Below, in pieces: positions 3,728 through 32,372 of a stretch of DNA of 64,000 nucleotides. Every line of letters begins with the position of its first letter. Position 1 is the first letter of the stretch. The notes below the pieces were generated by a model. The model ran no database searches and was not told the DNA's origin. It was given only the letters and a program-made list of their open reading frames with translations. The DNA is taken from contig NZ_CP118574.1 in assembly GCF_028898845.1 (NCBI RefSeq), positions 744,001-808,000 of the forward strand, given 5' to 3'. A program made the translations under genes and the position numbers. The DNA comes from Streptomyces sp. WZ-12 (GTDB taxonomy: Bacteria > Actinomycetota > Actinomycetes > Streptomycetales > Streptomycetaceae).

Positions 3728-3756
3728 GGCGGGCTGTTCCCTCCGATGGGGTGCCG

Positions 3757-4959
3757 TCAGGCGGGGGTGGTTCGTGGGATGAGTCGCACGGGGAGCTCGG
3801 TGGGATAGTGGAAGGGGCCCGCTCGGAAGTGGCTGGCCGGGTGGGTGGGGCCCGCGAGTTCGAAGCGCCTGGCCAGCGCGGTCAGCAGGAACTGCAGTTC
3901 TGTGAGGGCGAGTTGAGCGCCCACGCAGGCGTGCGGTCCGCCGCCGAAGGCGTGGTGGGCTTGTGGGGAGCGGTGCGGGTTCCAGGACGGCGGTGCGCCG
4001 ATGCGTGCGGGGTCGCGGTTGGCCGCGGCGAGCAGCAGCTGTACTCGGGCGCCCTTGGGGATCGCGGTGTCGCCCAGTGTGAGAGCGCGGCGGGCGAAGC
4101 GGACCGTGCTGTGCAGCGGCGGGTGGAGCCGGAGGCTTTCGGTGACGACCGCGTCGGCGGGGATCGTGCCGTTCGCCACCTCGTCCCAGGTATGCGGGTG
4201 CTGCTGCAGGCACCAGAGCAGGTTGCCGATGGCGGCGGCTGTCGTCTCCGTGCCGGCGGCCAGGAGCAGGAGGGCGGTGCGGATGGGTTCGGCCGAGCGG
4301 TCGACGGCGGAGTCGGGCGGGACGTCGGCGCACAGGCGTTGCAGCAGCGAGCCGTGCGGTACTCCGGTACGGACCGCGTGCCGGAGCCGGTCCGCGAGGA
4401 TGTCCCGGGAGGCCAGTGCCGCTTGCATGCCGGTTGTCTGGTCGGCGATGTGGCCGATGACGGGCCTGAGTTGTCGCCAGATCCACGGCCATTCATGGTC
4501 CGGCAGACCCAGGATGCGGCAGATGACGCGGGTCGGCAGGGGTTGGGCGAAGGTCTTGATCACGTCGACGGGTGTGTCGGTGACGGCCCGCTCGATCAGG
4601 TCATCAATCACGGGGATGACGGCGCTCTGGGTCCAGGTGGGCATGTGGCGGGTGGTGAACCAGGAGACCTGTTGGCGGGCCGGTCGGTGTCGGGGGGCGT
4701 CCAGGTCGATCGCGGTGGGGCCGAACAGTTGGCGGGTCGCCCTGAAGGGGAAGCCGACGGCCAGGTCCGGGTGCCGCAGGCCGTGGTGGACATCGCTGTG
4801 ACGGGCCGCGTAGTACGTGTGCTCGACCCGTTCGTAATGGAGCCCCGGACAAGCCAGCAAGGCGGCGTAACCCGGCCAGGGATCGGGGGATCCGAGCGGT
4901 GGGAGCGATGCCTGCGCGCAAGGCCGGGACGCGGTGGCGTGCGAGTCTGGGCCGGTCAT
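3757..4959 (-). CDS. Cytochrome P450, probable carrier-bound amino acid hydroxylase
   Basis: This is a full-length 400-residue actinobacterial P450. The I-helix motif AGTETT is at 235-240, the K-helix ESLR at 274-277, and the haem loop FGGGPHACVG has ligand Cys345. The ATG at 4959 overlaps the thioesterase stop in an ATGA, indicating coupled translation. In antibiotic clusters, P450s next to a stand-alone adenylation and carrier pair (NovI beside NovH, NikQ beside NikP1) beta-hydroxylate the tethered amino acid. I infer the same role here from context, not from sequence alone. Partner ferredoxin and reductase are not in the window. Confidence 0.9.
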   Translation of the reverse strand: MTGPDSHATASRPCAQASLPPLGSPDPWPGYAALLACPGLHYERVEHTYYAARHSDVHHGLRHPDLAVGFPFRATRQLFGPTAIDLDAPRHRPARQQVSWFTTRHMPTWTQSAVIPVIDDLIERAVTDTPVDVIKTFAQPLPTRVICRILGLPDHEWPWIWRQLRPVIGHIADQTTGMQAALASRDILADRLRHAVRTGVPHGSLLQRLCADVPPDSAVDRSAEPIRTALLLLAAGTETTAAAIGNLLWCLQQHPHTWDEVANGTIPADAVVTESLRLHPPLHSTVRFARRALTLGDTAIPKGARVQLLLAAANRDPARIGAPPSWNPHRSPQAHHAFGGGPHACVGAQLALTELQFLLTALARRFELAGPTHPASHFRAGPFHYPTELPVRLIPRTTPA

Positions 4960-5726
4960 CGTGGTCTCGTTTCCTCGGGCACCGCCGCTGCCAGGACGGG
5001 GGCGGGGTCGGCGTGGACGAAGAAGTGATCGCCCGGCGAGATCCGCAGGCTCCAGTGGCCGGCGGTGTGGTGGTGCCACTGGGCGACCTCCGGTACTGGC
5101 ACCAGGCGGTCCTCGGTGGCGGCGAACGCGGTGATCGGGCACGGGAGCGGGGCACGTCGGCGGGGCACGTACGTGTCGTAGATCTCCAGGTCCGTACGGA
5201 TGCGCGGCAGCCACAACCCTGCCAGCCGCGGGTTGTTCGCCAGGGACGGGGGCAGCCCTCCCAGGTGATCCAGGGCCTTGAGCAGGTCGGGTCCGGGCAG
5301 GTGGTGCAGCGGTGGTGAGCTGTGGGGCAGATGGGGCGCGGCGGCGGAGGCGACGATGAGGATGCGGGGGCCGGGGAGTCCGCGCTGGAGGAGCCAGTGC
5401 GCGGTCTCGAATGCCAGCAGCGCACCCAGACTGTGCCCGAAGAAGGCCCACGGAACGGTGTCGCCACGGTCTGCCAGGGCGGGACCGAGCGCCTCCGCAA
5501 CGGCCCGCGCGCTGCGCAGCGGCGGCTCGGCGACGCGGCTGTCCCTGCCGGGCGGCTGCACTGCGGCCATCCGCACACCGGGGGGAGCCGCGGCGGCCCA
5601 GTTCAGGCAGCCGGCCGCCGAGCCGCCTGCATGCGGGAAGCACAGCAGGTGCAGCCGTGGGAGAACCGGCTCGGGTCCCAGACGGATCCAGTCCGTGCTC
5701 GGTGACATGGTCCACCTGCCCGTCAC
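4956..5726 (-). CDS. Type II thioesterase (alpha/beta hydrolase)
   Basis: This 256-residue protein shows the type II thioesterase pattern: a LLCFPHAGGSA segment near residues 27-37, nucleophile Ser99 in GHSLG, and a C-terminal GDHFF segment carrying the catalytic His. Such enzymes release acyl or aminoacyl groups from carrier proteins, either as editing or as the planned release step, as NikP2 does in nikkomycin supply. The GTG at 5726 overlaps the carrier-protein stop in a GTGA; an in-frame ATG at 5708 is the alternative. In this operon it should free the oxidised amino acid from the carrier protein. Confidence 0.88.
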   Translation of the reverse strand: MTGRWTMSPSTDWIRLGPEPVLPRLHLLCFPHAGGSAAGCLNWAAAAPPGVRMAAVQPPGRDSRVAEPPLRSARAVAEALGPALADRGDTVPWAFFGHSLGALLAFETAHWLLQRGLPGPRILIVASAAAPHLPHSSPPLHHLPGPDLLKALDHLGGLPPSLANNPRLAGLWLPRIRTDLEIYDTYVPRRRAPLPCPITAFAATEDRLVPVPEVAQWHHHTAGHWSLRISPGDHFFVHADPAPVLAAAVPEETRPR

Positions 5727-6028
5727 GGTGTTCTCGATGTTGACGTCCCGTCAGCGCCCCTGACGGTAGGGCCGGGCGGTGTGGAGTCGACCACGACCTC
5801 ATGGATCCCTGCGAGGGTGTGGAAGGACTCCAGTTGGTAGTTCTCGACCACGATCTCCGTGCCGATGAGGCGTTCCAGGAAGACGATGAGTTCCACGACG
5901 GCGAGCGAATCCAGGATCCCCAACTCGAACAGGTTGGAGTGGGGGGTGATGGCCGCCACGTCGGCGTCGGGGCGAATGGCCGAGAGGAACGTGCGCAAGC
6001 GCGCTTCGAGTTCTGGTTGACTCAGCAT
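5723..6028 (-). CDS. Stand-alone peptidyl/acyl carrier protein
   Basis: This 101-residue protein has the carrier-protein signature L-G-I-L-D-S-L, with Ser41 as the phosphopantetheine attachment site. A helical domain covers residues 1-82 and a short disordered tail follows. It starts seven bases inside the end of the adenylation gene and its stop overlaps the thioesterase start, so the genes are tightly coupled. Its likely job is to carry the amino acid activated by the adjacent adenylation enzyme while the P450, and perhaps the dioxygenase, act on it. A 4'-phosphopantetheinyl transferase is needed but is not encoded nearby. Confidence 0.9.
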   Translation of the reverse strand: MLSQPELEARLRTFLSAIRPDADVAAITPHSNLFELGILDSLAVVELIVFLERLIGTEIVVENYQLESFHTLAGIHEVVVDSTPPGPTVRGADGTSTSRTP

Positions 6029-7791
6029 GGCTCTTTCCCTGTCCCTGTCCCTGTCCCAGTCCCGGTCGGGGTATCCCGGTCGTGTGCGGTCCCGGGTTGC
6101 CCCGGGGGCTCGGGGAGCGGTTGCCTGGCTGTCGGGTGGTCACACGGCCCACGGGGGTCGGCCGCTGCGGGGTGCGTGGGAGTGCCTGGGGCGCCGCCTG
6201 GAGCCGCTGCGATCATGCGCAGTGCCGTTGCCTGTGCCGCGTGCCGGTCGAGCTTTCCCCCTGCGGTTCGTGGCAGCGCGGGCACAACCAGCACGTAGGC
6301 GGGCTGCATGTAGTGCGGCAGGCGCATGCTGCACCAGGCGCGCAACTCCTCTTCCACACAGTCCTGTTCCTCCCCGCCGGTGACCACGGCGACGAGGGCC
6401 GCCAAGCGGCTACCCAGGTCGCCCTTCACCGTGACCACGAGGGCTTCGACCACCGCAGGATGTGCGGCCAGGTGCGTCTCGACCTCCTCCACCTCCACCC
6501 GATTTCCATGGATCTTGACCTGCAGGTCCTTGCGGCCGGCGAAGGTGAACAGCCCGTCCCGCTCTCTGCGCAGCAAGTCGCCGGTGCGCAGGACGCGTTC
6601 ATGGCTGTCCGGGCATCCCGGCGGCGCGACCAGCGCGCGACTGGTGGCGTCGGGGTCCAACCAGTACCCGGAGAACAACGCGGCGCTCCGCAGGAAGAGT
6701 TCACCAGTCTCGCCCACGCCGACTTCGTGACCCGCGTCGTCGAACACGAGCATCTCGGCTCCGGGGTGGGCGGGGCCGATCGGCACCTGCCGCAGATCAT
6801 CCGGGAGCGGGTCGGCAAGCTCCAGGAAGGAACAGGCAATGGACTCCGACTGCCCGAAGGCGTTCACCAACTGCACCCCGGGCAGCGCCTTGCGCAACGC
6901 CCGCAACAGCTCGACGGAGTACGCCTCGCCGCCCATCAGCAGCCCCCGTAGCGAGGTGCACGCGGACAACTCCTGTGTGGCATGCCGCAACACCGGCGGC
7001 CAGATGGAGGGAACGCCGCTCACATGGCTCACGTCCATCCGCGCCAAGTACTCCACGAAACGCCGAGGGTGACGCAGCAGCATCCGCGGAACCTGAACCA
7101 GCGTCCCGCCAGCGCCCGTTGCCCAACCCAGGTCGAGCAGCGAGAAGTCGAAGTTCAGCGGGGCGAACGACGCGACGCGGTGGTGCGGCGAAGCCGGCAC
7201 CTGCCGAGCCATCCCCCGGAAGAAGGCCAGCGCGGCCCGATGTGTCATCGTGATGCCCTTGGGTCGCCCAGTGGTGCCCGAGGTGAAGATCAAGTACGCG
7301 ACGTCGTGCTCCGCCGCCCCGCCACGGACCCGCTCCGAAGAACCGGGGACACCACCCGAAACCGCCACACCATCGCGCAACAACCGTATGCACACCGGGA
7401 TTTCGGCAACCGCCGGCTGCTCCTCGACCACGGCACGAGCGGTCGGCCGTGCCGCCGCGGCGATCGCCGCCTTGCGCGCCTGGGGAACGTCCGGAGCGAC
7501 GGGCACGTAGATTGCACCGAGCAGCGAACACGCCACCAACACCACCACCGCCTGCGGGACCGGATCGCATTCGACCAACACCCTGTCGCCATGGCCGATC
7601 CCGCGCTCCGCCAGTTCCGCGGCCAGGCGCTCGGCACCGAGCGCCAACTCCTCGTACGTCAGGCACTCGTCCTCGCGCAGCACCGCCACCTGGTCGGGCC
7701 GGACCAGTCCGGCGTGCAGGAAGTACTCACCAATGGACCGCGGACCGCGGCTCACCACCTCGTGGACCAGCGACGTCGTGTCCTGCATCAT
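6022..7791 (-). CDS. Stand-alone NRPS-type adenylation enzyme
   Basis: This 589-residue protein is a complete ANL-superfamily adenylating enzyme. Motif A3 is SGTTGRPKG at 171-179, A7 is RTGDL, A8 is GRKDLQVKIHGNRVE, and A10 is GGKLDR with the catalytic Lys. The A4 region has F-D-F-S with Asp215 where amino-acid-activating domains keep the Asp that binds the alpha-amino group, so an amino acid substrate is likely. A by-eye alignment to GrsA gives a pocket read of about D-F-L-S-L-G-A-A, which I cannot match to a substrate. The tail after A10 is low complexity, ending in a repeated Thr-Gly run. It starts the operon, with AAGGGG just upstream; the second ATG at 7788 has better spacing. Confidence 0.9.
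   Translation of the reverse strand: MMQDTTSLVHEVVSRGPRSIGEYFLHAGLVRPDQVAVLREDECLTYEELALGAERLAAELAERGIGHGDRVLVECDPVPQAVVVLVACSLLGAIYVPVAPDVPQARKAAIAAAARPTARAVVEEQPAVAEIPVCIRLLRDGVAVSGGVPGSSERVRGGAAEHDVAYLIFTSGTTGRPKGITMTHRAALAFFRGMARQVPASPHHRVASFAPLNFDFSLLDLGWATGAGGTLVQVPRMLLRHPRRFVEYLARMDVSHVSGVPSIWPPVLRHATQELSACTSLRGLLMGGEAYSVELLRALRKALPGVQLVNAFGQSESIACSFLELADPLPDDLRQVPIGPAHPGAEMLVFDDAGHEVGVGETGELFLRSAALFSGYWLDPDATSRALVAPPGCPDSHERVLRTGDLLRRERDGLFTFAGRKDLQVKIHGNRVEVEEVETHLAAHPAVVEALVVTVKGDLGSRLAALVAVVTGGEEQDCVEEELRAWCSMRLPHYMQPAYVLVVPALPRTAGGKLDRHAAQATALRMIAAAPGGAPGTPTHPAAADPRGPCDHPTARQPLPEPPGQPGTAHDRDTPTGTGTGTGTGKEPC
6034..6066. repeat. Hexanucleotide repeat TGTCCC inside the 3' end of the adenylation gene
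   Basis: About five tandem copies of a 6-bp unit (two of them diverged) encode the Thr-Gly repeats of the protein tail. Length variation here would stay in frame and would not touch the catalytic domain. Confidence 0.75.
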
Positions 7792-16137: not shown

Positions 16138-16757
16138 GGTCCGTCGTGAAAGTGCTGGTCACAGCCACTCGTTGAGGACTGCGACCAGCACGGTCGTCTC
16201 GTGGCGGACCGCGAGCTTGTCATACCTCGTGGCTACAGCCTGGTGGCGCTTGAGGCGGTTGATCCCGCACTCGACCGCGTGCCGCTGCTTGTAGTCGTCC
16301 TTGTCGAACTTGGGCGGCCGTCCGCCTCGCGATGAGCCCGCCGGGCGGTTCCATCTGGAGATCCCCCTTTTCGCCGCCCCAGCCGCGTGTTGGTGGGCCC
16401 GGCAGACCGTGGAGTCGATGTTCACGTCCCAGGTGATCAGGCCCTTGGCATCCGCCTCGGCCTGCAGCTGAGTGACGATCCGGGCCCAAGTGCAATCGCG
16501 CTGCCAGCGCCGAAACAGGTCATAGACCCGGTCCCACGGCCCGTAGCGTTCCGGCACGTCACGCCAGGGAGCACCCGTCCGGGTCCGCCACCGTATGCCG
16601 TCTATCAGCTGCCGCCGCGTCCATACCGGCGGACGGCCCGACTTGATGCCCCGTGGCAACAGCGGCTCAAGTCGGGCCCACTGGCCGCTCGTCAGATCCC
16701 CACGTCCCACAGGACGCGATCCTCAACGATAAAGATCAACTTTCGCAAACAGACCCT
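16136..16757. mobile_element. Decayed IS5-type insertion sequence with terminal inverted repeats
   Basis: The ends carry related inverted repeats. The left reads AGGGTCCGTCGTGAAAGT from 16136 and the right, read inward from 16757, reads AGGGTCTGTTTGCGAAAGTT. They match except for a few substitutions and one indel. I see no clear target duplication. The element is about 620 bp, shorter than the 850-900 bp of intact relatives, because the transposase gene has an internal deletion. Confidence 0.7.
16159..16710 (-). pseudogene. IS5-family transposase with internal deletion
   Basis: The 183-residue frame keeps the N-terminal DUF4096-like domain (L-T-x-x-Q-W-x-x-L-x-P-L-L-P), the first catalytic Asp in V-N-I-D-S-T, and the C-terminal [11 protein letters not shown] block with the catalytic Glu. 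About 90 residues between K-R-G and G-G-R-P-P, where the second Asp lies in relatives, are missing. Near K-R-G the frame leaves the family sequence, whose K-G-D-L-Q continuation is found in another frame, so a frameshift accompanies the deletion. It cannot be catalytically active. Confidence 0.75.
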
Positions 16758-16764
16758 GGTCGAC

Positions 16765-17559
16765 CTACGCGGTTGTGGCGATGCCGCCGTCGACGGGGAT
16801 CACGGCGCCTGTTAGGTATGCGCCTGCCCGGCTGGCGAGGAACACGGCGACACCCGCCATGTCGTCGTCGCGGCCGATCCGGCGCAGTGGGGCCGACGCC
16901 GCGATCGCCTCGCCGAACTCATCGAGGGTTGCCGCCATCATCGTCGACGGGAACGGTCCCGGCGCCACGGCGTTCACGGTGACGTGCTGCGGTCCTAGTT
17001 CCCTGGCGAGCACTCTGGTGAGTTGATGCAGTGCGGCCTTGCTGCTGGAGTACGAGTAGTTGGGCCGCTGGGGGATGTGGATGGCGGCGATGCTGCCGAT
17101 GTTGATGATCCGCGCGGGATCGTCGGCGGTGCCCGCCCTGCGAAGTGCGGGCAGCAGCGCCTGGACCAGCCAGAACGGCGACTTCAAGTTGAGGTCGACG
17201 ACCGTGTCCCAGGCCGCGTCTGGGAACGTCGCCAGCGGCTCGTCCCACATGGCGCCCGCGTTGTTGACGAGGATGTCGAGATGCTCCGAGTCGGCGGTGA
17301 CGAGGTCGGACAGTCGCCGACACTCGTCGTGGCGGGACAGGTCGGCGGAGATGGCCCGCACCTCACCGAATTTGGACAGCTGTTCCTGCGCCTGAGCGCA
17401 CGCTTCTGCGTTGCGTGAGCTGATGACCACGCGGACGCCCGCCTGGAGAAGGCCACGCGCGATCATCATTCCGATGCCTCGGGTACCACCGGTGACGAGC
17501 GCGCGCTTTCCGCGCAGATCGAAAAGTTCTGCATGCGTTGAGAATTGGTTGTCTACCAC
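16765..17559 (-). CDS. Short-chain dehydrogenase/reductase (SDR)
   Basis: This 264-residue classical SDR has the cofactor loop T-G-G-T-R-G-I-G near residues 25-32, the N-N-A-G motif, a catalytic Ser in I-G-S-I-A and the Y-S-S-S-K active-site pair, plus a C-terminal P-V-D-G-G segment. It should reduce a ketone or oxidise an alcohol with NAD(P)H. The GTG at 17559 is chosen because GGAAAG lies eight bases upstream and the longer frame would run through the promoter. It lies 215 bases downstream of psmH in the same direction. It has its own MerR-type promoter and is not among the eight psm genes I recall. Confidence 0.85.
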   Translation of the reverse strand: MVDNQFSTHAELFDLRGKRALVTGGTRGIGMMIARGLLQAGVRVVISSRNAEACAQAQEQLSKFGEVRAISADLSRHDECRRLSDLVTADSEHLDILVNNAGAMWDEPLATFPDAAWDTVVDLNLKSPFWLVQALLPALRRAGTADDPARIINIGSIAAIHIPQRPNYSYSSSKAALHQLTRVLARELGPQHVTVNAVAPGPFPSTMMAATLDEFGEAIAASAPLRRIGRDDDMAGVAVFLASRAGAYLTGAVIPVDGGIATTA

Positions 17560-17627
17560 TTGCCGCTTTCCAGTTGGTCGTGCGGGATGATGCGTCGACG
17601 CGTTGGGTGTTCGGTTCAGCTGTCTCA

Positions 17628-17658
17628 ACGCTATGGCCTTGGAGTGCACTCCAAGCAA
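17628..17658 (-). promoter_or_regulatory. MerR-type promoter and operator upstream of the SDR gene
   Basis: On the minus strand TTGCTT (-35, 17658-17653) and TAGCGT (-10, 17633-17628) are separated by 19 bases. The spacer region contains the perfect 18-bp palindrome CTTGGAGTGCACTCCAAG (17638-17655). A 19-bp spacer holding a palindrome is the established layout for MerR-family activation, and this palindrome is close to NmlR/AdhR-class sites. The transcript would have a leader of about 65 bases. No adjacent MerR gene is present. Confidence 0.7.
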
Positions 17659-17774
17659 GCGGATCAGGGTCTCCCGACGGACCGCGTGCGCAACCGCCGT
17701 AGGCGATTCCGAGCTCAGCATGCGGTCGCACCTCCCCCAACGGTCGGTCGTCTCAACTCGTCATCGGCTCACCA

Positions 17775-19256
17775 TCACCTCACCTCTGCCTTGGCCGCTT
17801 CTGCGGCGATGTGTGGTGGGGCCGCACCGCGGACGGCGTGCCACGCCTCGTGTATGTGGTGGTCTTGGGTGCGGGTGCCTCCGGTGGCGAGGCGGAGGAA
17901 GATGACGCCGTTGTGTTCGGAGTGGGTGAGGAAGGTGGTGCCGTTGGCGTTGATGGTCTGGAGGAGGTTGCGGTTGTCGGCTTCGGAGCCGTTGAGGCGG
18001 AAGGTCACCAGGCCCAGGGTGGGTGGGGCGAGCAGGGTGAAGCGGTCGTCGGCGCCGAGCAGTTCGGCGAAGAGTTGGGCGTGGCGGACGCCGGTGCGGA
18101 TGTGGGTGCGCAGTCCTTCGGCTCCGTACCAGCGGACCACGGACCAGAGTTTCAGCGCGCGGAAGCGACGGCCCAGGGGGATCTGCCAGTGCCGGTAGTC
18201 GGTCACCCGGCCCGATTCCGAGGCGGCGTTGCGCAGGTATTCGGGGAGCACGCTCAGGGCGCCGACGAGGGCTTCGGGGTCGGTCACCCACAGCAGGTCG
18301 CAATCGAAGTTGGTCAGCAGCCACTTGTGCGGGTTGGTGCAGTACGAATCGGCGTAATGCACACCGTCGTTGACCCAGCGCAGCTCGTCGCAGACCGCGG
18401 CCACGCCGGCGTAGGCGGCGTCGACGTGGAGCCAGACCCCGTAGCCGCGGCAGATCGGGCCGATGTCCTCCAGGGGGTCGAAGGAGAGGTGGGAGGTGGT
18501 GCCACGGGTGGCGACCACCATGAGCGGGGTGAGACCGGCGGCCAGGTCGGACCGGATGCGGGATTCCAGGTCGGCGTGGTCCATGGCGCCGTTGGCGTCG
18601 GTGGCCACCTCGCAGACGGCGCGCAGTCCCAGTCCGGCGATGACGGCTGCCTTGGCGGCCGCGGAGTGTGTCTGGCGGGTCAAGTAGACGCGGTAGCGGC
18701 GTTCGCTGGTGCCGTTCTCGCGGGTGCGGCCCGCACTGGCGCGGTGCAGGGCGGTGAGCAGCGCGACCAGTACGGCGCTGGAGGCGGTGTCCTGGATGAC
18801 GCCCTTGCCGCGGAAGCCGTCGGGCAGTCCGAGCAGGTGCACGAACCAGTCCAGCATCTGCTGTTCGACCTCGGTGCAGGCGGGGCTGGTGCTCCAGTTC
18901 ATGCCTTGGACGCCCAGACCGGCGGAGAGCAGTTCGGCCAGGACGGCGGGGCCGGAGGCGTTGGCGGGGAAGTAGCCGAAGAATCGGGGGTGTTGCCAGT
19001 GCATCAGGCCCGGGAGCACGATCCGTTCGAGGTCGGCGAGGAGTGCCGGGAAGCCCTCGCCGTGCTCGGGCGGGGTCGCCGGTAGTTGGGCCCGGATGCT
19101 GCCCGGTTCGACGGGTGGAGCGACCGGTAGGTCCTCCAGGTGTTGCCAGTAGTCGGCGATCCAGTCGATGGTCTGGTGGCCCAGGGCGCGGAAGGTGTCA
19201 TGGTCCATGTGAGGGGTGTGGGTGGTGTGGGGGGACTGCGCGTCGGTGGGCTTCAC
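17775..19256 (-). CDS. psmH: PLP-dependent aromatic L-amino acid decarboxylase, probable PsmH
   Basis: This 493-residue group II decarboxylase has PLP Lys311 in N-P-H-K-W-L, Asp279 in H-V-D-A-A-Y-A-G, and His197 in the T-H-S-A-A segment that stacks on the cofactor. The family turns tryptophan, 5-hydroxytryptophan or DOPA into amines. In the physostigmine pathway, PsmH makes serotonin from 5-hydroxytryptophan. The GTG at 19256 overlaps the stop of psmG in a GTGA. It is the last gene of the eight-gene operon. The symbol rests on matching gene content, order and cluster length to the published psm cluster from memory, not on a sequence comparison. Confidence 0.88.
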   Translation of the reverse strand: MKPTDAQSPHTTHTPHMDHDTFRALGHQTIDWIADYWQHLEDLPVAPPVEPGSIRAQLPATPPEHGEGFPALLADLERIVLPGLMHWQHPRFFGYFPANASGPAVLAELLSAGLGVQGMNWSTSPACTEVEQQMLDWFVHLLGLPDGFRGKGVIQDTASSAVLVALLTALHRASAGRTRENGTSERRYRVYLTRQTHSAAAKAAVIAGLGLRAVCEVATDANGAMDHADLESRIRSDLAAGLTPLMVVATRGTTSHLSFDPLEDIGPICRGYGVWLHVDAAYAGVAAVCDELRWVNDGVHYADSYCTNPHKWLLTNFDCDLLWVTDPEALVGALSVLPEYLRNAASESGRVTDYRHWQIPLGRRFRALKLWSVVRWYGAEGLRTHIRTGVRHAQLFAELLGADDRFTLLAPPTLGLVTFRLNGSEADNRNLLQTINANGTTFLTHSEHNGVIFLRLATGGTRTQDHHIHEAWHAVRGAAPPHIAAEAAKAEVR

Positions 19257-20458
19257 AGCAGCGGCTCCTTCAGGTGGCGGGCCAGGTAGCGGATGCCGTC
19301 GGTGCCGCCGGTGCCGGGCACATCGCCGATGGTCTTCTTCGCGACGCCGAGGTGGGTACGTTTCCACCGCGCCCACTGGCCGTTGACCGCGTCGACGGCC
19401 AGGCGTACGTCCTCGGCCGCGGCCCGGTCGTGCGTCTCCAGGCGGTCGGTGGCGCGGGCGAGCGCGGTGGAAAGCGAGGGGGTGTGGGGCGGGGCCGTCT
19501 CCAGGTCGACCGCGGCCAGGGGTTCGGGGCGGAGGGCGGCCTCGCCGCGGCAGCGTCGCTCCAGGCGCGCGAAGCCGGGTGACTGGAGGGCACCGGTGCC
19601 TGTGGTGGCCGCGCGGATCGCGGCGAACTGGGCGGGGTCGATGATGGCGACCAGGCGGAAGACGTGCTGGGCGCGGGCGAGGTTGGCGGCGGTGGCGTGC
19701 AGCGACGCGGTCAGGGCAGCGGTGTCGGGGGTGGGGACCAGGGCCTGTTGGTGGGCCTGGGCGGTGTGGAACGCGGCCTGTTCGGCGAGGAGTTCCATGA
19801 TCTGCACGCTGCGCAGGAACAGGGGCTCGTCCGGCTGTGCCGTCGCCACCGGCAGGGACGACTCCACCAGCAGCTCCAGCGGTTCCGGGAGTCCGGCGCC
19901 GCCCGCGGACAGCAGTCGGTTGCAGCGGTGCATGGCCTGTGCGATGCCGGTGTGCCGGGGCCTGGTGTCGGCGTCCGCCCAGCCGTGGTGTGCGTCCAGG
20001 TGGCGCGCGAGGTGGGTGGCCGCGGTGGAGCGGAAGCGGCGTTCGCCGAGGCGTTCCTCGCGGGCGGCCCGTCGCAGTTCGTGCCGGACCAGGTCCGCGG
20101 TGAGCAGTGCGGACAGTTGGGCGGCGCGTTGGGGAAAGTCGCCCAGGCGGGACCACTGGCCGAACAGGGCGGTCATGGTGTAGGCGCCGTAGGAGGGTGC
20201 CTTGCGCAGGGAGCTGGTCAGGCAGGTCAGCCAGGCCGTGGTGGCCCATTCCAAGGTGCCTGGTTCGAGGGGGCGGCTGCGGGCCCAGTCCCAGGCGTCG
20301 AGGAGCCGCGACTGAAGTCCGCCGGGCAGCGCCGTGGTGCCGTGAGCCCGTATGACGCGGGTGACCGGGCGGTGCGGGAACGGTCCGGGTGGGCCCTTGC
20401 GGATGCGCTGGAGCCAGGCGTCAACTGCCCGTTCCGCGTGGTCGGTCGGGGTCGTCAT
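19253..20458 (-). CDS. psmG: Tryptophan 2,3-dioxygenase-like haem protein, probable PsmG
   Basis: This 401-residue protein has the C-terminal signature of the tryptophan dioxygenase superfamily: W-K-R-T-H with candidate haem ligand His369, then I-G-D-V-P-G-T-G-G-T-D-G-I-R-Y-L. An upstream G-A-L-Q-S-P-G-F-x-R-L-E block matches the S-G-x-Q-S-x-x-F-R-x-x-E motif. The N-terminal half is diverged. Relatives in natural product clusters (MarE; the haem-dependent aromatic hydroxylases such as LmbB2 and SfmD) insert one oxygen instead of cleaving the ring. As the known pathway starts from 5-hydroxytryptophan, I infer tryptophan 5-hydroxylation. The gene overlaps psmF by 38 bases. Confidence 0.8.
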   Translation of the reverse strand: MTTPTDHAERAVDAWLQRIRKGPPGPFPHRPVTRVIRAHGTTALPGGLQSRLLDAWDWARSRPLEPGTLEWATTAWLTCLTSSLRKAPSYGAYTMTALFGQWSRLGDFPQRAAQLSALLTADLVRHELRRAAREERLGERRFRSTAATHLARHLDAHHGWADADTRPRHTGIAQAMHRCNRLLSAGGAGLPEPLELLVESSLPVATAQPDEPLFLRSVQIMELLAEQAAFHTAQAHQQALVPTPDTAALTASLHATAANLARAQHVFRLVAIIDPAQFAAIRAATTGTGALQSPGFARLERRCRGEAALRPEPLAAVDLETAPPHTPSLSTALARATDRLETHDRAAAEDVRLAVDAVNGQWARWKRTHLGVAKKTIGDVPGTGGTDGIRYLARHLKEPLL

Positions 20459-20990
20459 CGATGGGGTTTCTCCATACGGGGAACATGGGTGGGCCGTCGG
20501 GAAGGTGCAGCGTCCGGGTGTTGCGGAATCCGTGACGGAGCATCAAGCGTGCGCCGCGCCAGGTACTGGCCTCGGCGTAGGTGCCGACGCGGTCGCGGTC
20601 AGCCAGCGCGGTGAGGCGGGAGAGCATCCGTCCGCCCAGGCCGGAGTCCTGGTGGGCGCTGCGCACGCCGTAGAACAGCAGGTAGTAGTGGGGGGCGTGC
20701 GGATGGTGTTCGTCCAGTCGGTTGCGCATCTCGCCCTCCCGGCCGCGGGCGGGGTCGTCGGAGAGTTGGGCGTTCGGAGGCAGGGCGAGCATCGCGGCGG
20801 TGCCCGGGGACAGTTCGACGATCCCGCCGGCCGCGTGGACGCGGCCGGCGACGCCCGAGAAGAAGCGGGTGAGGGCTGCCGTTCCGTCCGGGAAGACCCA
20901 CTGGGTCGGCGGATCGGCGGCGAACGCCTCGGCGAGGATGGCGGCGACCTCGGGGAGGTCGCGGGCCGTGGCGGTCCGGAAGGCGGTCAT
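20421..20990 (-). CDS. psmF: GNAT N-acetyltransferase, probable PsmF
   Basis: This 189-residue GNAT protein has its acetyl-CoA loop at Q-D-S-G-L-G-G in the helix following the beta4 strand L-L-F-Y-G-V-R. In the published physostigmine scheme PsmF acetylates serotonin to N-acetylserotonin; the acetyl group is needed for the middle steps and later removed. The ATG at 20990 overlaps the carbamoyltransferase stop in an ATGA, and the gene end overlaps psmG. The symbol is assigned by order and family. Confidence 0.85.
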   Translation of the reverse strand: MTAFRTATARDLPEVAAILAEAFAADPPTQWVFPDGTAALTRFFSGVAGRVHAAGGIVELSPGTAAMLALPPNAQLSDDPARGREGEMRNRLDEHHPHAPHYYLLFYGVRSAHQDSGLGGRMLSRLTALADRDRVGTYAEASTWRGARLMLRHGFRNTRTLHLPDGPPMFPVWRNPIDDDPDRPRGTGS

Positions 20991-22654
20991 GTGCGGCGGT
21001 ACAGACGGCCCTCGGACCAGATGGCGGGTACGCGCCCCCACGCCGCGGCCGAGGCCACGTCGGGGAAGAAGCCGCGGCCCTTGTGGTTGGCGCTGGTGTT
21101 GCAGAGCAGCGGGATGCCCGAGAGCTTCTCGTAGGCGGTCAACAGCTCGTGCACGAAGGGCGATTGGCGATCGTTGACGGTCTGGAGGCGCGCGGTGCCG
21201 TCGAGGTGTACGACGGCGGGGACCTTGGCCTCCCAGCCGACCCGGGTGTCGTGGTCGAAGAGCATGTGGGGGTCGGGCGTGCCCGGGGCGAACAGTTCCG
21301 GCGCCCGGTGTTCCAGGCATACCGGGGCGACCGGCCGGTACTCCTCACGGTCCTTGATGCGGTTGAGGTGTTCCTTCATGCCGGCGTCGGTGGCCGGGGC
21401 GAAGATGCTGCGGTGCCCCAGGGCGCGCGGGCCCAGCTCGGCCCGGCCGGTGAGCACGACGACGGGCGCGCCGGTGTCATGGAGTTCGCGGGCAAGTCCG
21501 TTGACGTCGCAGGCGGTTGAGGTCCATCCCGGCGGGTCGTCCAGCGCCGGCCGTAGGCGGGGGCCCTGGTAGACCGACCAGTCGAGGACGGCTCGGCCGC
21601 TGGTCCGCGCCCATTCGGTGGCGGCGGCTCCGAGGGCGGCCCCGGAGTCGTTGGGGAACGGTGGCACCCACACCTCCTCGAACAGGCCGGAGGAGCGCAG
21701 CAGGTTGTTCCACTTGATGTTCAGTGCGCAGCCGCCGGCCAGGCACAGGCGGGGCGGCAGGTCACGGCCGCGCACGGCGGCGCCGAGGGCGGCGTGCAGT
21801 CGACGGCCCACATAGCCCTGGAAGGTGGCGATGAGGTCCGCGTCCGTGGCGTCGGGCCAGGGGGATGCGTCGCCGTGCTTGAGCGCGTGGGCGAGGTCGT
21901 CCCCCATCGTGAACGACAGTTCCATGGCGTCGAGTTGCTCGGTGAGGACGGTGTCGAAGCCCGGGTCGTCCGTGCCGAGGGCGGCGTACGCCATGGCCTT
22001 ACCGGCCACGTCGAGGTTACGGGGCATCAACTGCGGGTCTTGGGCGGCGGGTTGGTGGGAGCCGCGGAACGGTGGGAGGGCGGCGCAGAAGTCCGCGAAG
22101 ATGCTGCCGTACAAGGGGAACAGCTCCCCCAGGCGCGTGACGCGGAGGGGTTGGGGTTCCACCCGGTACAGGACGGGAGTCATGCCGCCGTCCCACACCA
22201 GGACCAGTGCGTCCTGTCCGCGCCGGGCGAAGGGGCTGGTGGTGTAGGAACCCATCAGGTGTTGGGTGCTGTGGTGGTAGCCGCTGTAGGCGTGCCTGGC
22301 GGAGCCGAGCGGGAGCCCGATGAAGTCGCGCCGGGCCAGTACCTCGGCGCCGGGCAGGTCCTGGTAGGCGGCCACCGGCAGTACCACGGGGCGCCCCTGG
22401 TGGGAGACGTGCAGCAGCGGATTCCGCTGGTCCTGGCCCTGCGGGGCGAACCAGCCGTCCACCACGAACCGGTCGATGTCGCCGAGGGCGACCCCTTCCC
22501 TGGCGAGGACGTCCTCGGCCCGCTCCAGTCGGTCCAGCGGTTGGAATCGCCGACTGTTGTCCAGCTTCTCCATCTCCACGGAGAAGCGGAGCCTGCCGTC
22601 CTCGACGAGGGCCAGTCCGCCGTCGTGGGTGAGTTTCAGTCCGCAGATCAGCAT
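20987..22654 (-). CDS. psmE: NodU/CmcH-type O-carbamoyltransferase, probable PsmE
   Basis: This 555-residue protein is a full-length carbamoyltransferase. The N-terminal Kae1-like domain (about 1-355) has H-D-G-G-L-A-L-V near residues 10-17 and L-A-G-G-C-A-L-N-I-K-W-N late in the domain. The C-terminal domain has G-R-A-E-L-G-P-R-A-L-G-H-R-S-I. The family transfers the carbamoyl group of carbamoyl phosphate, via carbamoyl-adenylate, to a hydroxyl. Physostigmine carries a carbamate on the 5-hydroxyl of the indole, which fits exactly. It follows psmD by four bases. Confidence 0.9.
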   Translation of the reverse strand: MLICGLKLTHDGGLALVEDGRLRFSVEMEKLDNSRRFQPLDRLERAEDVLAREGVALGDIDRFVVDGWFAPQGQDQRNPLLHVSHQGRPVVLPVAAYQDLPGAEVLARRDFIGLPLGSARHAYSGYHHSTQHLMGSYTTSPFARRGQDALVLVWDGGMTPVLYRVEPQPLRVTRLGELFPLYGSIFADFCAALPPFRGSHQPAAQDPQLMPRNLDVAGKAMAYAALGTDDPGFDTVLTEQLDAMELSFTMGDDLAHALKHGDASPWPDATDADLIATFQGYVGRRLHAALGAAVRGRDLPPRLCLAGGCALNIKWNNLLRSSGLFEEVWVPPFPNDSGAALGAAATEWARTSGRAVLDWSVYQGPRLRPALDDPPGWTSTACDVNGLARELHDTGAPVVVLTGRAELGPRALGHRSIFAPATDAGMKEHLNRIKDREEYRPVAPVCLEHRAPELFAPGTPDPHMLFDHDTRVGWEAKVPAVVHLDGTARLQTVNDRQSPFVHELLTAYEKLSGIPLLCNTSANHKGRGFFPDVASAAAWGRVPAIWSEGRLYRRT

Positions 22655-22658
22655 GTCC

Positions 22659-23459
22659 CTAGCCTTCGCCCCGGGTCAGGACCCAGGTCTCGTAGTGGGT
22701 GGCGTCGGTGGTGGGGCGCTCGGTGTAGTTGTCGAACACCTCTGCCCGGGCGAAGCCTGCGGCGCGTGCCTGGGCGCGGACGGTGTCGTGGTCGAACGCG
22801 TACAACCGGTGCACCTCGCGGGTGCCGGCGTAGGTGTCCGCCGCGCCGTGGCGGGTGAACTGGGTGTAGTGCAGATCGCAGTAGGGGGTGTCGGGTTCGC
22901 TGGTGAAGTTCCAGATGAAGGCCAGGTCATCCTGATCGGCGGCCCACTTGCGGTTGCCCCAGTGCCCCTTGAGCAGTGCGGCGGTCTCGATGTCGAAGAC
23001 GAACGTCGCGCCTAGCGGCAGTATCTCGGCGACGGAGCGCAGGGTCTCGCCCAACGACCGTGCGTCGGGCTGGTAGTTGAGGGCGGCCGCGGTGCACACC
23101 ACGGCGTCCGCGGCGGTCGGCAGCCGTGCGGGCAGTTCCAACCGCCGGAAGTCGGCGGCCCGACCGACCCGGTTCTTCGCCAGCGCCAGCATGGTCTCGG
23201 AGCGGTCCAGGGCGATGACCTCGTAGCCGCGGCCCACCAGTTGTTCGGTCATCAGCCCGGTGCCGCAGCACAGTTCCAGCACCCGGTGCACGCGCTGTCC
23301 GCGGGCGGCCCAGAGGCGTTCGATGAAGTCCGCCATCCGCGTCCGGGGCGACTCTCCCCACTGGGCTATCGCGTAGTCGACGAGCCGGTCGTACACGTCG
23401 GCGGTCGCCGCGTAGGGCTCGGGCGTGCCGGCGTCCTGGTGTGGCTGTCCCTGCATCAT
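22659..23459 (-). CDS. psmD: SAM-dependent methyltransferase, probable PsmD
   Basis: This 266-residue class I methyltransferase has motif I E-L-C-C-G-T-G near residues 62-68. It is clearly paralogous to the next upstream gene: both have Y-D-R-L-x-D near the start, W-A-A-D-Q-x-D-x-A-F-I-W in the middle and A-G-F-A-R-A-E-V-F-D-N-Y-T near the end. PsmD in the physostigmine pathway methylates indole C3, which sets the quaternary centre and triggers pyrroloindoline closure. Which of the two paralogues is PsmC and which PsmD is assigned only by gene order. Confidence 0.8.
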   Translation of the reverse strand: MMQGQPHQDAGTPEPYAATADVYDRLVDYAIAQWGESPRTRMADFIERLWAARGQRVHRVLELCCGTGLMTEQLVGRGYEVIALDRSETMLALAKNRVGRAADFRRLELPARLPTAADAVVCTAAALNYQPDARSLGETLRSVAEILPLGATFVFDIETAALLKGHWGNRKWAADQDDLAFIWNFTSEPDTPYCDLHYTQFTRHGAADTYAGTREVHRLYAFDHDTVRAQARAAGFARAEVFDNYTERPTTDATHYETWVLTRGEG

Positions 23460-23479
23460 GTGCGGTGTCTGTCCTTCCG

Positions 23480-24265
23480 TCAGTTGCGGGTGAGGGCCCA
23501 GGTGTCGTAGAGCGTGGTCGCGTGGGCGGGGGCGTTGGTGTAGTTGTCGAACACCTCGGCGCGGGCGAAGCCGGCCCGCTCGGCGCTGCGCCGCACCAGC
23601 GGGTGGTCCAGGACGTACAGGCGGTGCTTCTCGCTCGTTCGCGCGTAGGTGGCACCCGCACCCTCACCACGGCGCAGGAACTGGGTGTAGAAGGCGTCGC
23701 TGTAGCGCTCGTCGGAGTTGGTGAACTCCCAGATGAAGGCGAAGTCGCCCTGGTCCGCGGCCCATACGCGATGCCCCGCGTGTTCGGTGACCATGTGGCG
23801 GGACAGCACGTCGAAGACGAAGACGCCGCCGGGGCGCAGGACGCGGTGCACGGCCCGGAAGACCTCGGTCAGCTCCTCCTCGCCGGCGGTGTAGCTCAAC
23901 CCCGAACCGGTGGAACTCACCGCGTCGACGGACGCCTCGGGCAGCGGGAGATCGGGCAACTGCGCCTGGATGAGCGGGATGTGCTTGCCGAGGCGCTGTC
24001 GGGCGAGGGCGAGCATCTGCGGGGACTGGTCGAGCCCGGTGACCGCGTAGCCGGCCCGGGCGAGGTCGTGCAGCACGCTGCCGGTGCCGCAGCACAGGTC
24101 CACCACGTCCCGCACGTCGCCGTCGCGCCGCGCCCACTGCTCGCGGAGGAACGCGACCCGTTCGGGGACCGGCTTCTCGTGCCAGTTCGCGATGATCCAG
24201 TCGTCCAGTCGGTCGTAGATTTCGGCGATGGCCCGGTACATCGGGGCATGCGCATCGGTTGCCAT
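23480..24265 (-). CDS. psmC: SAM-dependent methyltransferase, probable PsmC
   Basis: This 261-residue class I methyltransferase has motif I D-L-C-C-G-T-G-S near residues 56-63 and shares blocks over its whole length with the downstream paralogue. AAAGGA lies about seven bases before the ATG. By the published pathway it should methylate a nitrogen of the physostigmine intermediates, probably the carbamate, but I cannot derive this from sequence. It sits 22 bases after psmB. The tandem pair looks like a duplication followed by change of target. Confidence 0.78.
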   Translation of the reverse strand: MATDAHAPMYRAIAEIYDRLDDWIIANWHEKPVPERVAFLREQWARRDGDVRDVVDLCCGTGSVLHDLARAGYAVTGLDQSPQMLALARQRLGKHIPLIQAQLPDLPLPEASVDAVSSTGSGLSYTAGEEELTEVFRAVHRVLRPGGVFVFDVLSRHMVTEHAGHRVWAADQGDFAFIWEFTNSDERYSDAFYTQFLRRGEGAGATYARTSEKHRLYVLDHPLVRRSAERAGFARAEVFDNYTNAPAHATTLYDTWALTRN

Positions 24266-24287
24266 GCGGGGTCCTTTGCTGTGTGGG

Positions 24288-25217
24288 TCAGGCGAACGCG
24301 GCGGTCAACGCCCGTACCGCGTGCTGCCGTAGGGCGGCGGCGCGGGGGGCCACGCCGTCCAGGTGGAGTGCGCAGTGGACGAGTCCCGGACACCGCACGA
24401 GGGTGGTCGGCACGCCGGCGGCGGCCATCCGCGCCGCGTATGCCTCGCCCTCGTCGCGCAGCGGGTCGTACTCGACGGTGAGGACGGTGGCCGGCGGCAG
24501 CCCGGCGAGGTCCGGGGCGAGGGCCGGGGCGGCCCGCCACGGCGCGTCGTCCAACGGGCCTTCGGGCCGGCCCAGGTACGTGCGCCAGCACGCCTCCATC
24601 ATCGCCGCGGTGTTCTGGTAACCGGTGGCGAACTCCCGGTACGACGGGGCGTTCCGCCGCGGGTCCAGCGCCGGATTGATCAGGAGTTGGTGGGCGGGGG
24701 ACGCCACCGAACCGCGGGCTTCCAGGGCGACGGCGGCGGCGAGGGCCCCTCCCGCGCTGTCCCCGGCGACCGCCAACCGGGCGGGGTCGCACCCGAGCAC
24801 GGCGGCGTTCTCGTGGGCCCAGGCGGTGACGGCCCGGGCGTCGTCCAGCCCTGCCGGGAAGGGGTGTTCGGGCGAGAGCCGGTAGTCGACGTTGAGCACC
24901 GCCACCCCGGCCTCCACCGCCAGGGCCCGCAGCGGCGGATCCATGTAGGCGATGCTGCCGGCCGTCCAACCGCCACCGTGGAAGTACACGACGAGCGGGA
25001 GTCGGGTGCCTGGCCGCGGATGGTAGAGCCGGTACGGCACCTCACTCGTGCCGTGCACGGCCGTACCGTCGGTCACCCGGGCGACGGCGGGCGGCGGGGC
25101 GCAGAAGGCGACCATGCCCTCGACCGCGGTACGCAGGGTATCGGGGGTCATCGGCTGCGGAACCTCAGTCGCGTTGAGCACGTCGAGGAAGCGTTCTTTG
25201 ATGCGGGGGTCGAGCAC
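24288..25217 (-). CDS. psmB: HSL-family alpha/beta hydrolase, probable N-deacetylase PsmB
   Basis: This 309-residue protein belongs to the hormone-sensitive-lipase family of esterases (alpha/beta hydrolase fold-3). It has the oxyanion motif H-G-G-G at 80-83, nucleophile Ser154 in G-D-S-A-G-G, a D-P-L-R-D segment for the acid and a late L-V-H-C-A-L with the His. In the physostigmine pathway a hydrolase removes the temporary N-acetyl group after ring closure, and this is the only hydrolase in the operon. The start is GTG at 25217, 103 bases after psmA. Arylformamidase activity paired with PsmG is conceivable but less likely. Confidence 0.82.
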   Translation of the reverse strand: MLDPRIKERFLDVLNATEVPQPMTPDTLRTAVEGMVAFCAPPPAVARVTDGTAVHGTSEVPYRLYHPRPGTRLPLVVYFHGGGWTAGSIAYMDPPLRALAVEAGVAVLNVDYRLSPEHPFPAGLDDARAVTAWAHENAAVLGCDPARLAVAGDSAGGALAAAVALEARGSVASPAHQLLINPALDPRRNAPSYREFATGYQNTAAMMEACWRTYLGRPEGPLDDAPWRAAPALAPDLAGLPPATVLTVEYDPLRDEGEAYAARMAAAGVPTTLVRCPGLVHCALHLDGVAPRAAALRQHAVRALTAAFA

Positions 25218-25320
25218 GGGGAGCGGGCCCTTTCCTCGTGAACGGCACGGACGCCCTCGGCCTCGCCGTTGAGTCGGCCGGATCGCCCGTAACTGCTCTG
25301 CTGGAATGGCGAGTTGAGGA

Positions 25321-26319
25321 TTAGTCCAGGTGGGATGCGCGGGTCAGGAGGTTGCCGGCGATGCGCCGGGTGCACCGGTCCAGGGCGTCGCCCCGACCGG
25401 CTAACGCACGGAATCCGGTGGGCTGTTGGAGCAGTTCCACCGCTCGCAGCCGGTCTAGGTTGTCGAGCTCACCGATCCGGGCCCGCAGCTCGGAGGCACC
25501 GAAGAGGCCCTCGGGGCGCAGCAGTTCGGGCCCCTGTGCCGGGAATCCACCCGCGCCGGCCAGGTCCAGGTAGGGAGCGCCGTGCGGCCCGTAAATGCGA
25601 TCGGCGGCCACCCAGTCGGCCGCTCCGTCCAACAGTCGCGGCAGATCACCGAACCGCAGGGTGTGCACCACGGGATTGAGGTAGGCGTCCGCGTCGAAGA
25701 CGTCCTGCTCGGCCTGGTCCAGCGCGGTGCCGGCCCAGGCACCGGGCATGCCGTAGGCGTCGAGCGAGAGGGAGAGCCCCAGCGCCCTGACGACGTCCAG
25801 TCCCGTGGCGTCCTCGTGGGCGCCCATCAGACGGACCAGTTCGCGGTCGCGCATGCGTTGCGCCTCGCCGATGGCGTTGTACAGCCATACGTGCAGCAAC
25901 CCGTCGTCGGCCAGGTGGTCGCCGAGCCACTGGAGCCCGGCCCGGGGGTCCGGAAGGTGATGGACGACGCCGTAGCTATAGATGAATTCAAAACGGTCAG
26001 CCAGCGCGGGGCCCGATATCGCGCCGTCGATGAATTCCACATTACCGACCCCATGCCGCCGGGCCAGCCGTTGCGCGATTTCGCGTGAGGCGTCGCACGG
26101 TTCGAGCCCCACAAAGCGCACGTTGGGATATGCGCGCGCCAGCCCGATCAGGGTGTGCCCGGTGCCACACCCCGCATCGAGCACCGACCAACCGTCGGCC
26201 AGGCCACCCTCGATGACCAGTGGAAGCTCGCTCCCCACGACATCGATCAGCGGCCTCTCAACCCCTGGCGAGGGGAATGGAAAAGTCTCATAAAGGCGAC
26301 GCGTTGCGCTGGCGGCCAT
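25321..26319 (-). CDS. psmA: SAM-dependent methyltransferase, probable PsmA
   Basis: This 332-residue protein begins with a class I methyltransferase domain (motif I V-L-D-A-G-C-G-T-G near 46-54, then the V-G-L-E-P strand and Y-G-V-V-H-H-L). It continues with about 130 extra C-terminal residues typical of small-molecule methyltransferases in bacterial secondary metabolism. It is unrelated at motif level to the C/D pair. The ATG at 26319 has GGAAGGGA six bases upstream. As the first gene of the operon it is PsmA by order. It should supply one or more of the four methyl groups of physostigmine, most likely a late N-methylation. Confidence 0.82.
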   Translation of the reverse strand: MAASATRRLYETFPFPSPGVERPLIDVVGSELPLVIEGGLADGWSVLDAGCGTGHTLIGLARAYPNVRFVGLEPCDASREIAQRLARRHGVGNVEFIDGAISGPALADRFEFIYSYGVVHHLPDPRAGLQWLGDHLADDGLLHVWLYNAIGEAQRMRDRELVRLMGAHEDATGLDVVRALGLSLSLDAYGMPGAWAGTALDQAEQDVFDADAYLNPVVHTLRFGDLPRLLDGAADWVAADRIYGPHGAPYLDLAGAGGFPAQGPELLRPEGLFGASELRARIGELDNLDRLRAVELLQQPTGFRALAGRGDALDRCTRRIAGNLLTRASHLD

Positions 26320-31399: not shown

Positions 31400-31553
31400 A
31401 GGCATTTCCCGGCGTCTCCCAGCGCCGGCAGGGTCACCACAACGTTGAGCTTCGCAGAGCCACAGAGACCCCGGCATCCACACGAATCGCTCAAGACACT
31501 GCCTCTCCCCTACGATGTCCGCCAGAATCTCCGCTGGCAGGAAGGTAGTTGTC

Positions 31554-32372
31554 ATGACCGAGGGCTTTTCCGGCGTGGACCAGTCGAAGCCGAGCATCGC
31601 CCGGGTCTACGACTATCTCCTGGGCGGCAAGGACAACTACGACGTGGACCGCGTCATAGGAGACAAGTTCACCCGCGACCTGCCCGGTTCGGTGGCCATC
31701 GCGCACGCCAACCGGCAGAACCTCGTCCGTGCCGTGCGGGAGCTCGCGTTGGCGGGCATCGAGCAGTTCATCGACATGGGCAGCGGGCTGCCGACGGCGG
31801 ACAACGTCCACCAGGTCGCCCAGCGCCACGTCCCCGACGCCCGCGTGGTCTACATCGACAACGACCCCATCGTCCTGGCCCACGGCCGCGCCCTGCTTGA
31901 GGACAACCAACACACCCGCGTCATCCAGGCCGACGTCCGCGACCCACACAGCATCCGGGAACACCCGGACACCATCGACCTGATCGACTTCGACCGGCCC
32001 GTGGCGGTGATCCACAGCGCCATCCTGCACCACATCAACGACGACGAGGACCCCCGCTCCATCGTCAACTACTGGCAGCGGCAGGTCCCGTCCGACAGCT
32101 ACTTCTTCATCTCCCACTTCCGCAGCGGCGGCAACCCCGAGACCGCCGAGGCCGAGGCGGTGCTCCAGGCCACCTTCGGCCGCGGCCGGTGGCGCACCGA
32201 CCAGGAGATCCGCGACCTCTTCGGCGACCTGGAAGTCCTGCAACCGGGGATCGTCCCCAGCTCCCTGTGGCGGCCGGACACGGCGGAGGGAGTCACCCGC
32301 ATCGGACCGGCAGAGCGCGACCTGACGGTCTGGGAGCGGCTGATCGTAGGGGGCCTGGCCCGCAAGCCGTAA
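31554..32372 (+). CDS. S-adenosyl methyltransferase of the DUF574 family
   Basis: This 272-residue protein has the DUF574 (PF04672) hallmarks: S-I-A-R-V-Y-D-Y-L-L-G-G-K-D-N-Y near residues 13-28, F-I-D-M-G-S-G-L-P-T near 75-84, V-V-Y-I-D-N-D-P-I-V, and A-I-L-H-H-I-N-D-D-E-D-P. These are abundant actinobacterial SAM-binding proteins of mostly unknown target. The ATG at 31554 follows GGAAGG by nine bases. It converges with the ICMT-like gene. Confidence 0.9.
   Translation: MTEGFSGVDQSKPSIARVYDYLLGGKDNYDVDRVIGDKFTRDLPGSVAIAHANRQNLVRAVRELALAGIEQFIDMGSGLPTADNVHQVAQRHVPDARVVYIDNDPIVLAHGRALLEDNQHTRVIQADVRDPHSIREHPDTIDLIDFDRPVAVIHSAILHHINDDEDPRSIVNYWQRQVPSDSYFFISHFRSGGNPETAEAEAVLQATFGRGRWRTDQEIRDLFGDLEVLQPGIVPSSLWRPDTAEGVTRIGPAERDLTVWERLIVGGLARKP

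Follow-up and report, generated by a model that had tools for sequence, protein, structure and literature searches.

Introduction

Physostigmine is a cholinesterase inhibitor in clinical use. Liu et al. are said to have reported, in 2014, a physostigmine (psm) gene cluster of 8.5 kb in Streptomyces griseofuscus, with steps of carbamoylation, N-methylation and deacetylation. The genes psmA-H have since been treated as the physostigmine cluster, with PsmH and PsmF leading from 5-hydroxytryptophan to N-acetylserotonin (PMC8403405); this and the other papers given here by PMC number are cited from excerpts. The methyltransferase PsmD, for which residues in contact with cofactor and substrate have been named (PMC11804793), carries out a C3-methylation that is followed by cyclisation (PMC10491745). 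Here we describe an eight-gene operon of Streptomyces sp. WZ-12, whose genes we call A to H, and compare it with psmA-H. It lies in a stretch of 64,000 nucleotides (C1:744001-808000, in a genome of 9.55 Mb and two contigs), which we refer to as the window and to which all positions below refer unless a contig is named.

Results

The eight genes run leftward, on the minus strand, and occupy 17775-26319, a span of 8545 bp in which all frames are open and of full length. Gaps of 103, 22, 20 and 4 bp separate A from B, B from C, C from D and D from E, and the remaining genes overlap, E and F by 4 bp, F and G by 38 bp, and G and H by 4 bp. A first-pass annotation made from the sequence alone had proposed this set of leftward genes with its span and spacings, and the coordinates, gaps and overlaps were all confirmed. 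The gene families given there were likewise recovered, by Pfam for A to E and H, by similarity to GNAT structures for F, and by predicted fold for G.

The same annotation had matched the operon to psm, and protein comparison agrees with it. A is 84% identical to the S. griseofuscus methyltransferase W8QGX5, D is identical at 222 of 265 residues (84%; E 1.2e-149) to the crystallised PsmD (PDB 7zgt), and G is identical at 299 of 401 residues (75%) to an S. griseofuscus "putative tryptophan 2,3-dioxygenase" (P0018). The published letters PsmD, PsmF and PsmH, at which letter order was checked in the excerpts, correspond to the fourth, sixth and eighth genes here. As neither low identity nor a different order was seen, the psm identification stands. 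All eight genes are also found, in the same order and direction and with 73-84% identity, in S. diastatochromogenes NRRL B-1698 and S. benahoarensis, an arrangement far beyond chance. The neighbourhoods of these two clusters differ from that in the window, with no flanking gene in common (for S. diastatochromogenes the comparison covered about 2 kb before A and about 5 kb after H). We are thus highly confident that the eight genes form a complete psm operon, orthologous to that of S. griseofuscus, the predicted product being physostigmine or a close analogue. The coding capacity for physostigmine or a near relative is probably present in the strain, which may well make physostigmine itself.

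Several observations weigh against this identification. The S. griseofuscus proteins compared were the counterparts of A, D and G, three of the eight. F has no match in Pfam or NCBIfam at E 0.001, and G scores below the curated cut-offs of the tryptophan dioxygenase models. The eight-gene unit includes no regulator or transporter gene, and expression cannot be judged from the unit. Finally, physostigmine was not detected in S. griseofuscus DSM 40191 under the conditions tried, in a report whose excerpt does not state whether that strain carries the cluster (PMC8443760).

Two more distant clusters show how the unit varies. In Peterkaempfera griseoplana the eight families are all present (42-63% identity by tblastn), with the 4 bp overlap of G and H seen in the window, but the layout is split: C, B and A lie on one strand and D and E on the other, while a second contig carries G, H and an F that is truncated at the contig end. 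This cluster could have a different product. In Nocardiopsis eucommiae the order is that of the window, but five genes (A, B, D, E and H) are fragmented, and between E and G a remnant of F of about 50 residues is left, which reflects either decay or assembly error. Between the window and S. diastatochromogenes, S. benahoarensis or P. griseoplana, the eight psm genes are the only predicted genes in common. N. eucommiae shares three further matches with the window: an S-adenosyl methyltransferase family protein (31515-32372 in the window; 40%, E 8.5e-54), which is upstream of A in both and nearer to it in N. eucommiae, a short-chain dehydrogenase (33%) and an AMP-binding protein (27%). None of the three adjoins the operon in both genomes, though the dehydrogenase gene follows H in the window, and we read them as members of common families.

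The individual proteins fit the psm roles. A (25321-26319, 332 aa), the psmA orthologue, is an S-adenosylmethionine-dependent methyltransferase and, like C and D, belongs to class I by its Pfam families; it probably acts in an N-methylation step. The gene caller placed its start at 26238, but the orthologues place it at 26319, and the N-terminus MAASATRRLYE is common to the S. diastatochromogenes orthologue. The psmB orthologue B (24288-25217, 309 aa) is a hydrolase of the hormone-sensitive lipase type (Abhydrolase_3, E 8.4e-66) in which the catalytic motifs and residues HGGG, GDSAG, D251 and H281 are kept, and it is likely the enzyme that removes the N-acetyl group. Its GTG start at 25217 has the same position in S. 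diastatochromogenes and S. benahoarensis, and the start of A and the GTG start of H at 19256 also match those of their orthologues. C (23480-24265, 261 aa), the psmC orthologue, and D (22659-23459, 266 aa), the psmD orthologue and predicted indole C3-methyltransferase, are paralogues with 47-48% identity. All seven PsmD cofactor and substrate contacts named in the excerpt of PMC11804793 (Y16, W34, T123, A126, Q130, E158 and L162) are present in D.

E (20987-22654, 555 aa), the psmE orthologue, has both Carbam_trans_N and Carbam_trans_C and is assigned as an O-carbamoyltransferase of the NodU/TobZ type. It matches TobZ in the PDB (E 1e-33), and the NCBIfam NodU model spans its full length with 594 bits against a cut-off of 1000. 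F (20421-20990, 189 aa), the psmF orthologue, resembles GNAT-type N-acetyltransferase structures in sequence (2qec, E 1.9e-9; puromycin N-acetyltransferase 7k09, E 1.1e-8). H (17775-19256, 493 aa), the psmH orthologue, is a pyridoxal phosphate-dependent aromatic amino acid decarboxylase (Pyridoxal_deC, E 2e-101) that carries the HKW motif and matches aromatic decarboxylases in the PDB, tyrosine and DOPA decarboxylase among them, with a best E of 1.6e-126.

In comparisons with S. diastatochromogenes and with S. benahoarensis, each of the eight genes gave a ratio of non-synonymous to synonymous substitution (dN/dS; Nei-Gojobori method, own script) between 0.19 and 0.45. Within this range A, D and E are the better conserved (80-84% identity, dN/dS 0.19-0.34), and B, C and F are more diverged (73-82%, dN/dS 0.40-0.45), with C at 75-77% and F at 73-74% identity to their orthologues in the two species. 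This divergence speaks for another reading, in which the operon derives from psm but a shift in the specificity of an N-methyltransferase or of the hydrolase has changed its end product to a different pyrroloindoline, whether nor-methyl, N-acetyl (TAN-1169-like) or modified in some other way. Ions that fit the formulas of TAN-1169A and B have been seen beside physostigmine in S. albospinus RLe7, in a paper that, in the excerpt, also calls them pathway intermediates (PMC5511137). However, all eight genes are open and constrained, and the PsmD substrate residues are kept. We therefore consider an altered product unlikely, and physostigmine or a close analogue the better expectation.

G (19253-20458, 401 aa), the psmG orthologue, bears on where the pathway begins. 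Its AlphaFold2 model (predicted local distance difference test score 87.5) is closest to tryptophan 2,3-dioxygenase (TDO), PrnB, IDO and MarE, and G is thus predicted to have the fold of the tryptophan dioxygenase/heme-dependent aromatic oxygenase superfamily, of which it would be a divergent member. H369, R282 and a GTGG loop (G382-G385) are invariant in 10 of 10 aligned sequences and also align with 2nox, and H369 is presumably the proximal heme histidine. R282 corresponds to the carboxylate-binding arginine, and roles for this arginine and for the GTGG loop are described in PMC11904535. Where canonical TDO has its distal histidine (His55 in the Xanthomonas enzyme), all ten sequences have valine (V218). 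Loss of this histidine was considered as a signature of a hydroxylase, an idea that is weakened by the canonical TDO of WZ-12, which has threonine there, and by other TDO-like proteins with leucine or histidine.

G adjoins the decarboxylase gene H in all five loci examined as DNA. On three more contigs (162036, 7090212 and 5624 bases) A and D were matched and G was not, a result that shows neither absence nor presence, since the G protein search scored the 7996 candidates sharing most words and listed one contig per 90% cluster. Because G has the TDO fold, lies beside H throughout these five loci, and occurs in two carriers in which no pterin-dependent hydroxylase was seen, the gene set probably starts from tryptophan, and the 5-hydroxytryptophan start proposed in the first-pass annotation should be moved back by one step. 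The likeliest role of G is that of a heme tryptophan 5-hydroxylase. On this basis we think it probable that the operon is self-sufficient from tryptophan to physostigmine, with G as a histidine-ligated heme 5-hydroxylase with valine at the distal site and no need for a pterin-type enzyme. As a tryptophan hydroxylase, G would be at odds with a paper of 2021, which places the gene for the hydroxylase outside the psm cluster (PMC8403405, in excerpt). Among the papers searched, the name PsmG led to none on the protein.

By profile G does not pass as a canonical TDO. It falls below the curated cut-offs, with 30 against 34.9 bits in Pfam and 43.3 against 390.7 in NCBIfam, and a different frame of the WZ-12 genome does exceed the Pfam cut-off for TDO. 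The role of G as hydroxylase has to contend with a pterin-dependent enzyme, the aromatic amino acid hydroxylase (AAAH, PF00351). WZ-12 has one (C1:1668686-1669459), and one each was found in S. diastatochromogenes and S. benahoarensis, so that all three Streptomyces carriers examined have it. In the genus at large it was seen in 15 of 150 genomes, with WZ-12 counted. Such an enzyme, encoded elsewhere in the genome, might supply 5-hydroxytryptophan and leave G with another function, and an AAAH is the supposed source in S. albulus (PMC8403405). That enzyme, a W199F variant, may nevertheless be poor on tryptophan, and the same excerpt allows for another hydroxylase. In P. griseoplana and N. eucommiae G is in the cluster and AAAH was not found, which is soft evidence given a fragmented assembly and a broken-looking cluster, respectively.

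The surroundings of the AAAH genes also speak to this point. Those of WZ-12 and S. diastatochromogenes have six predicted neighbours in common, one of them perhaps mis-called, and that of S. benahoarensis is 52% identical, lies at a contig end and shares no neighbour. Since WZ-12 and S. diastatochromogenes share the surroundings of AAAH and not those of psm, inheritance within the clade is indicated rather than linkage to psm. With none found in the two carriers outside Streptomyces, we read the association of AAAH with psm as mostly a clade effect, without regarding the matter as closed. A separate AAAH as the source of 5-hydroxytryptophan thus appears improbable, and the balance favours G as the tryptophan hydroxylase. 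That the operon has decayed or fallen silent and no longer gives a product is very improbable: a broken-looking copy exists in N. eucommiae, where assembly error is possible, but here all eight frames are of full length, keep their catalytic motifs and have low dN/dS.

The cluster is seldom encountered. A search of 391 other genomes of the genus gave no orthologue of D (best outside match E 1.1e-54, 42%), and a search of 390 other genomes of the order gave one (81%, in a genome of the same genus with the same rows as the S. benahoarensis entry; next match E 1.1e-54); the two draws overlap in part, and with six candidates scored per genome a diverged orthologue could be missed. A scan of genome contigs with a ten-sequence D alignment gave 25 loci, most of them distant, and the best match to G among 60 other relatives was at 29% (E 2.3e-18). 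Among the TDO-like proteins, those at loci L047-L050, in another genus of the same order, share 29-32% identity with G and have a GTGY loop and a distal leucine; these are possibly further indole-oxidising enzymes.

Plasmid records gave one match, in Nonomuraea gerenzanensis, which covers 12% of the operon query and lies within H. No clean empty insertion site was seen: among the matches listed, the right flank, in 295 genomes, matches about one gene at a time, and the left flank was searched in three genome entries, two of which returned the same rows and appear to be a single genome. Downstream of H come two genes, one for the short-chain dehydrogenase (16765-17721) and one for a transposase of the IS4/5 type (16159-16710). 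The stretch 16574-17234 is 96% identical to one on another S. diastatochromogenes contig, a sign that DNA close to the cluster may have moved recently. Further away, 2750-7791 on the minus strand holds a compact NRPS-like (non-ribosomal peptide synthetase) operon of overlapping or closely spaced genes for an AMP-binding enzyme, a carrier protein, a thioesterase, a cytochrome P450 and a TauD-type dioxygenase. A search for RNA families (at gathering thresholds) and tRNAs found none in the window.

Discussion

We propose a pathway that would begin with hydroxylation of tryptophan at C5 by G, through a histidine-ligated heme. H would decarboxylate the resulting 5-hydroxytryptophan to serotonin, F would acetylate the amine, and E would carbamoylate the 5-hydroxyl. 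Methylation at indole C3 by D would trigger closure of the pyrroloindoline by the amide nitrogen. A and C, perhaps with D, would place the N-methyl groups, and removal of the acetyl group by B would free a nitrogen that could then be methylated, giving physostigmine or a close analogue such as a nor-methyl form. Carbamoylation by E, N-methylation by A and C, and deacetylation by B are roles that we assume from the steps attributed to the S. griseofuscus cluster and from the protein families. Gene content, order, orthology, catalytic residues and selection were analysed directly; the reactions of PsmD, PsmF and PsmH are taken from the excerpted literature; the role of G and production in WZ-12 are what we infer.

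Few sequenced strains carry physostigmine genes, and this additional complete copy in Streptomyces speaks for eight genes as the minimal set. Together with the split layout in Peterkaempfera it suggests that the unit is built of an ABC block and a DEFGH block. The operon is also a new source of enzymes for the synthesis of pyrroloindolines and N-acetylserotonin, and it sharpens the question of the first step, namely which enzyme hydroxylates tryptophan.

The predicted fold of G is that of the superfamily to which the heme tryptophan hydroxylases (Shi et al. 2023) have been assigned by description, as a new sub-family of tryptophan dioxygenases (PMC13285481, in excerpt). Shi et al. (2023) may already have published the reading of G as a hydroxylase. 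D matches the structure of SgMT (9gdj, E 2.1e-54) and the entry 9icz (E 1.4e-64), but SgMT and StspM1 act on tryptophan diketopiperazines (PMC11804793), and D is far closer to PsmD. The cluster family itself is already known and is rare; what is new here is a further intact-looking copy. Set beside psmA-H of S. griseofuscus, the WZ-12 operon is alike in its eight genes and in the roles at positions 4, 6 and 8, and unlike in 16-25% of the residues of A, D and G.

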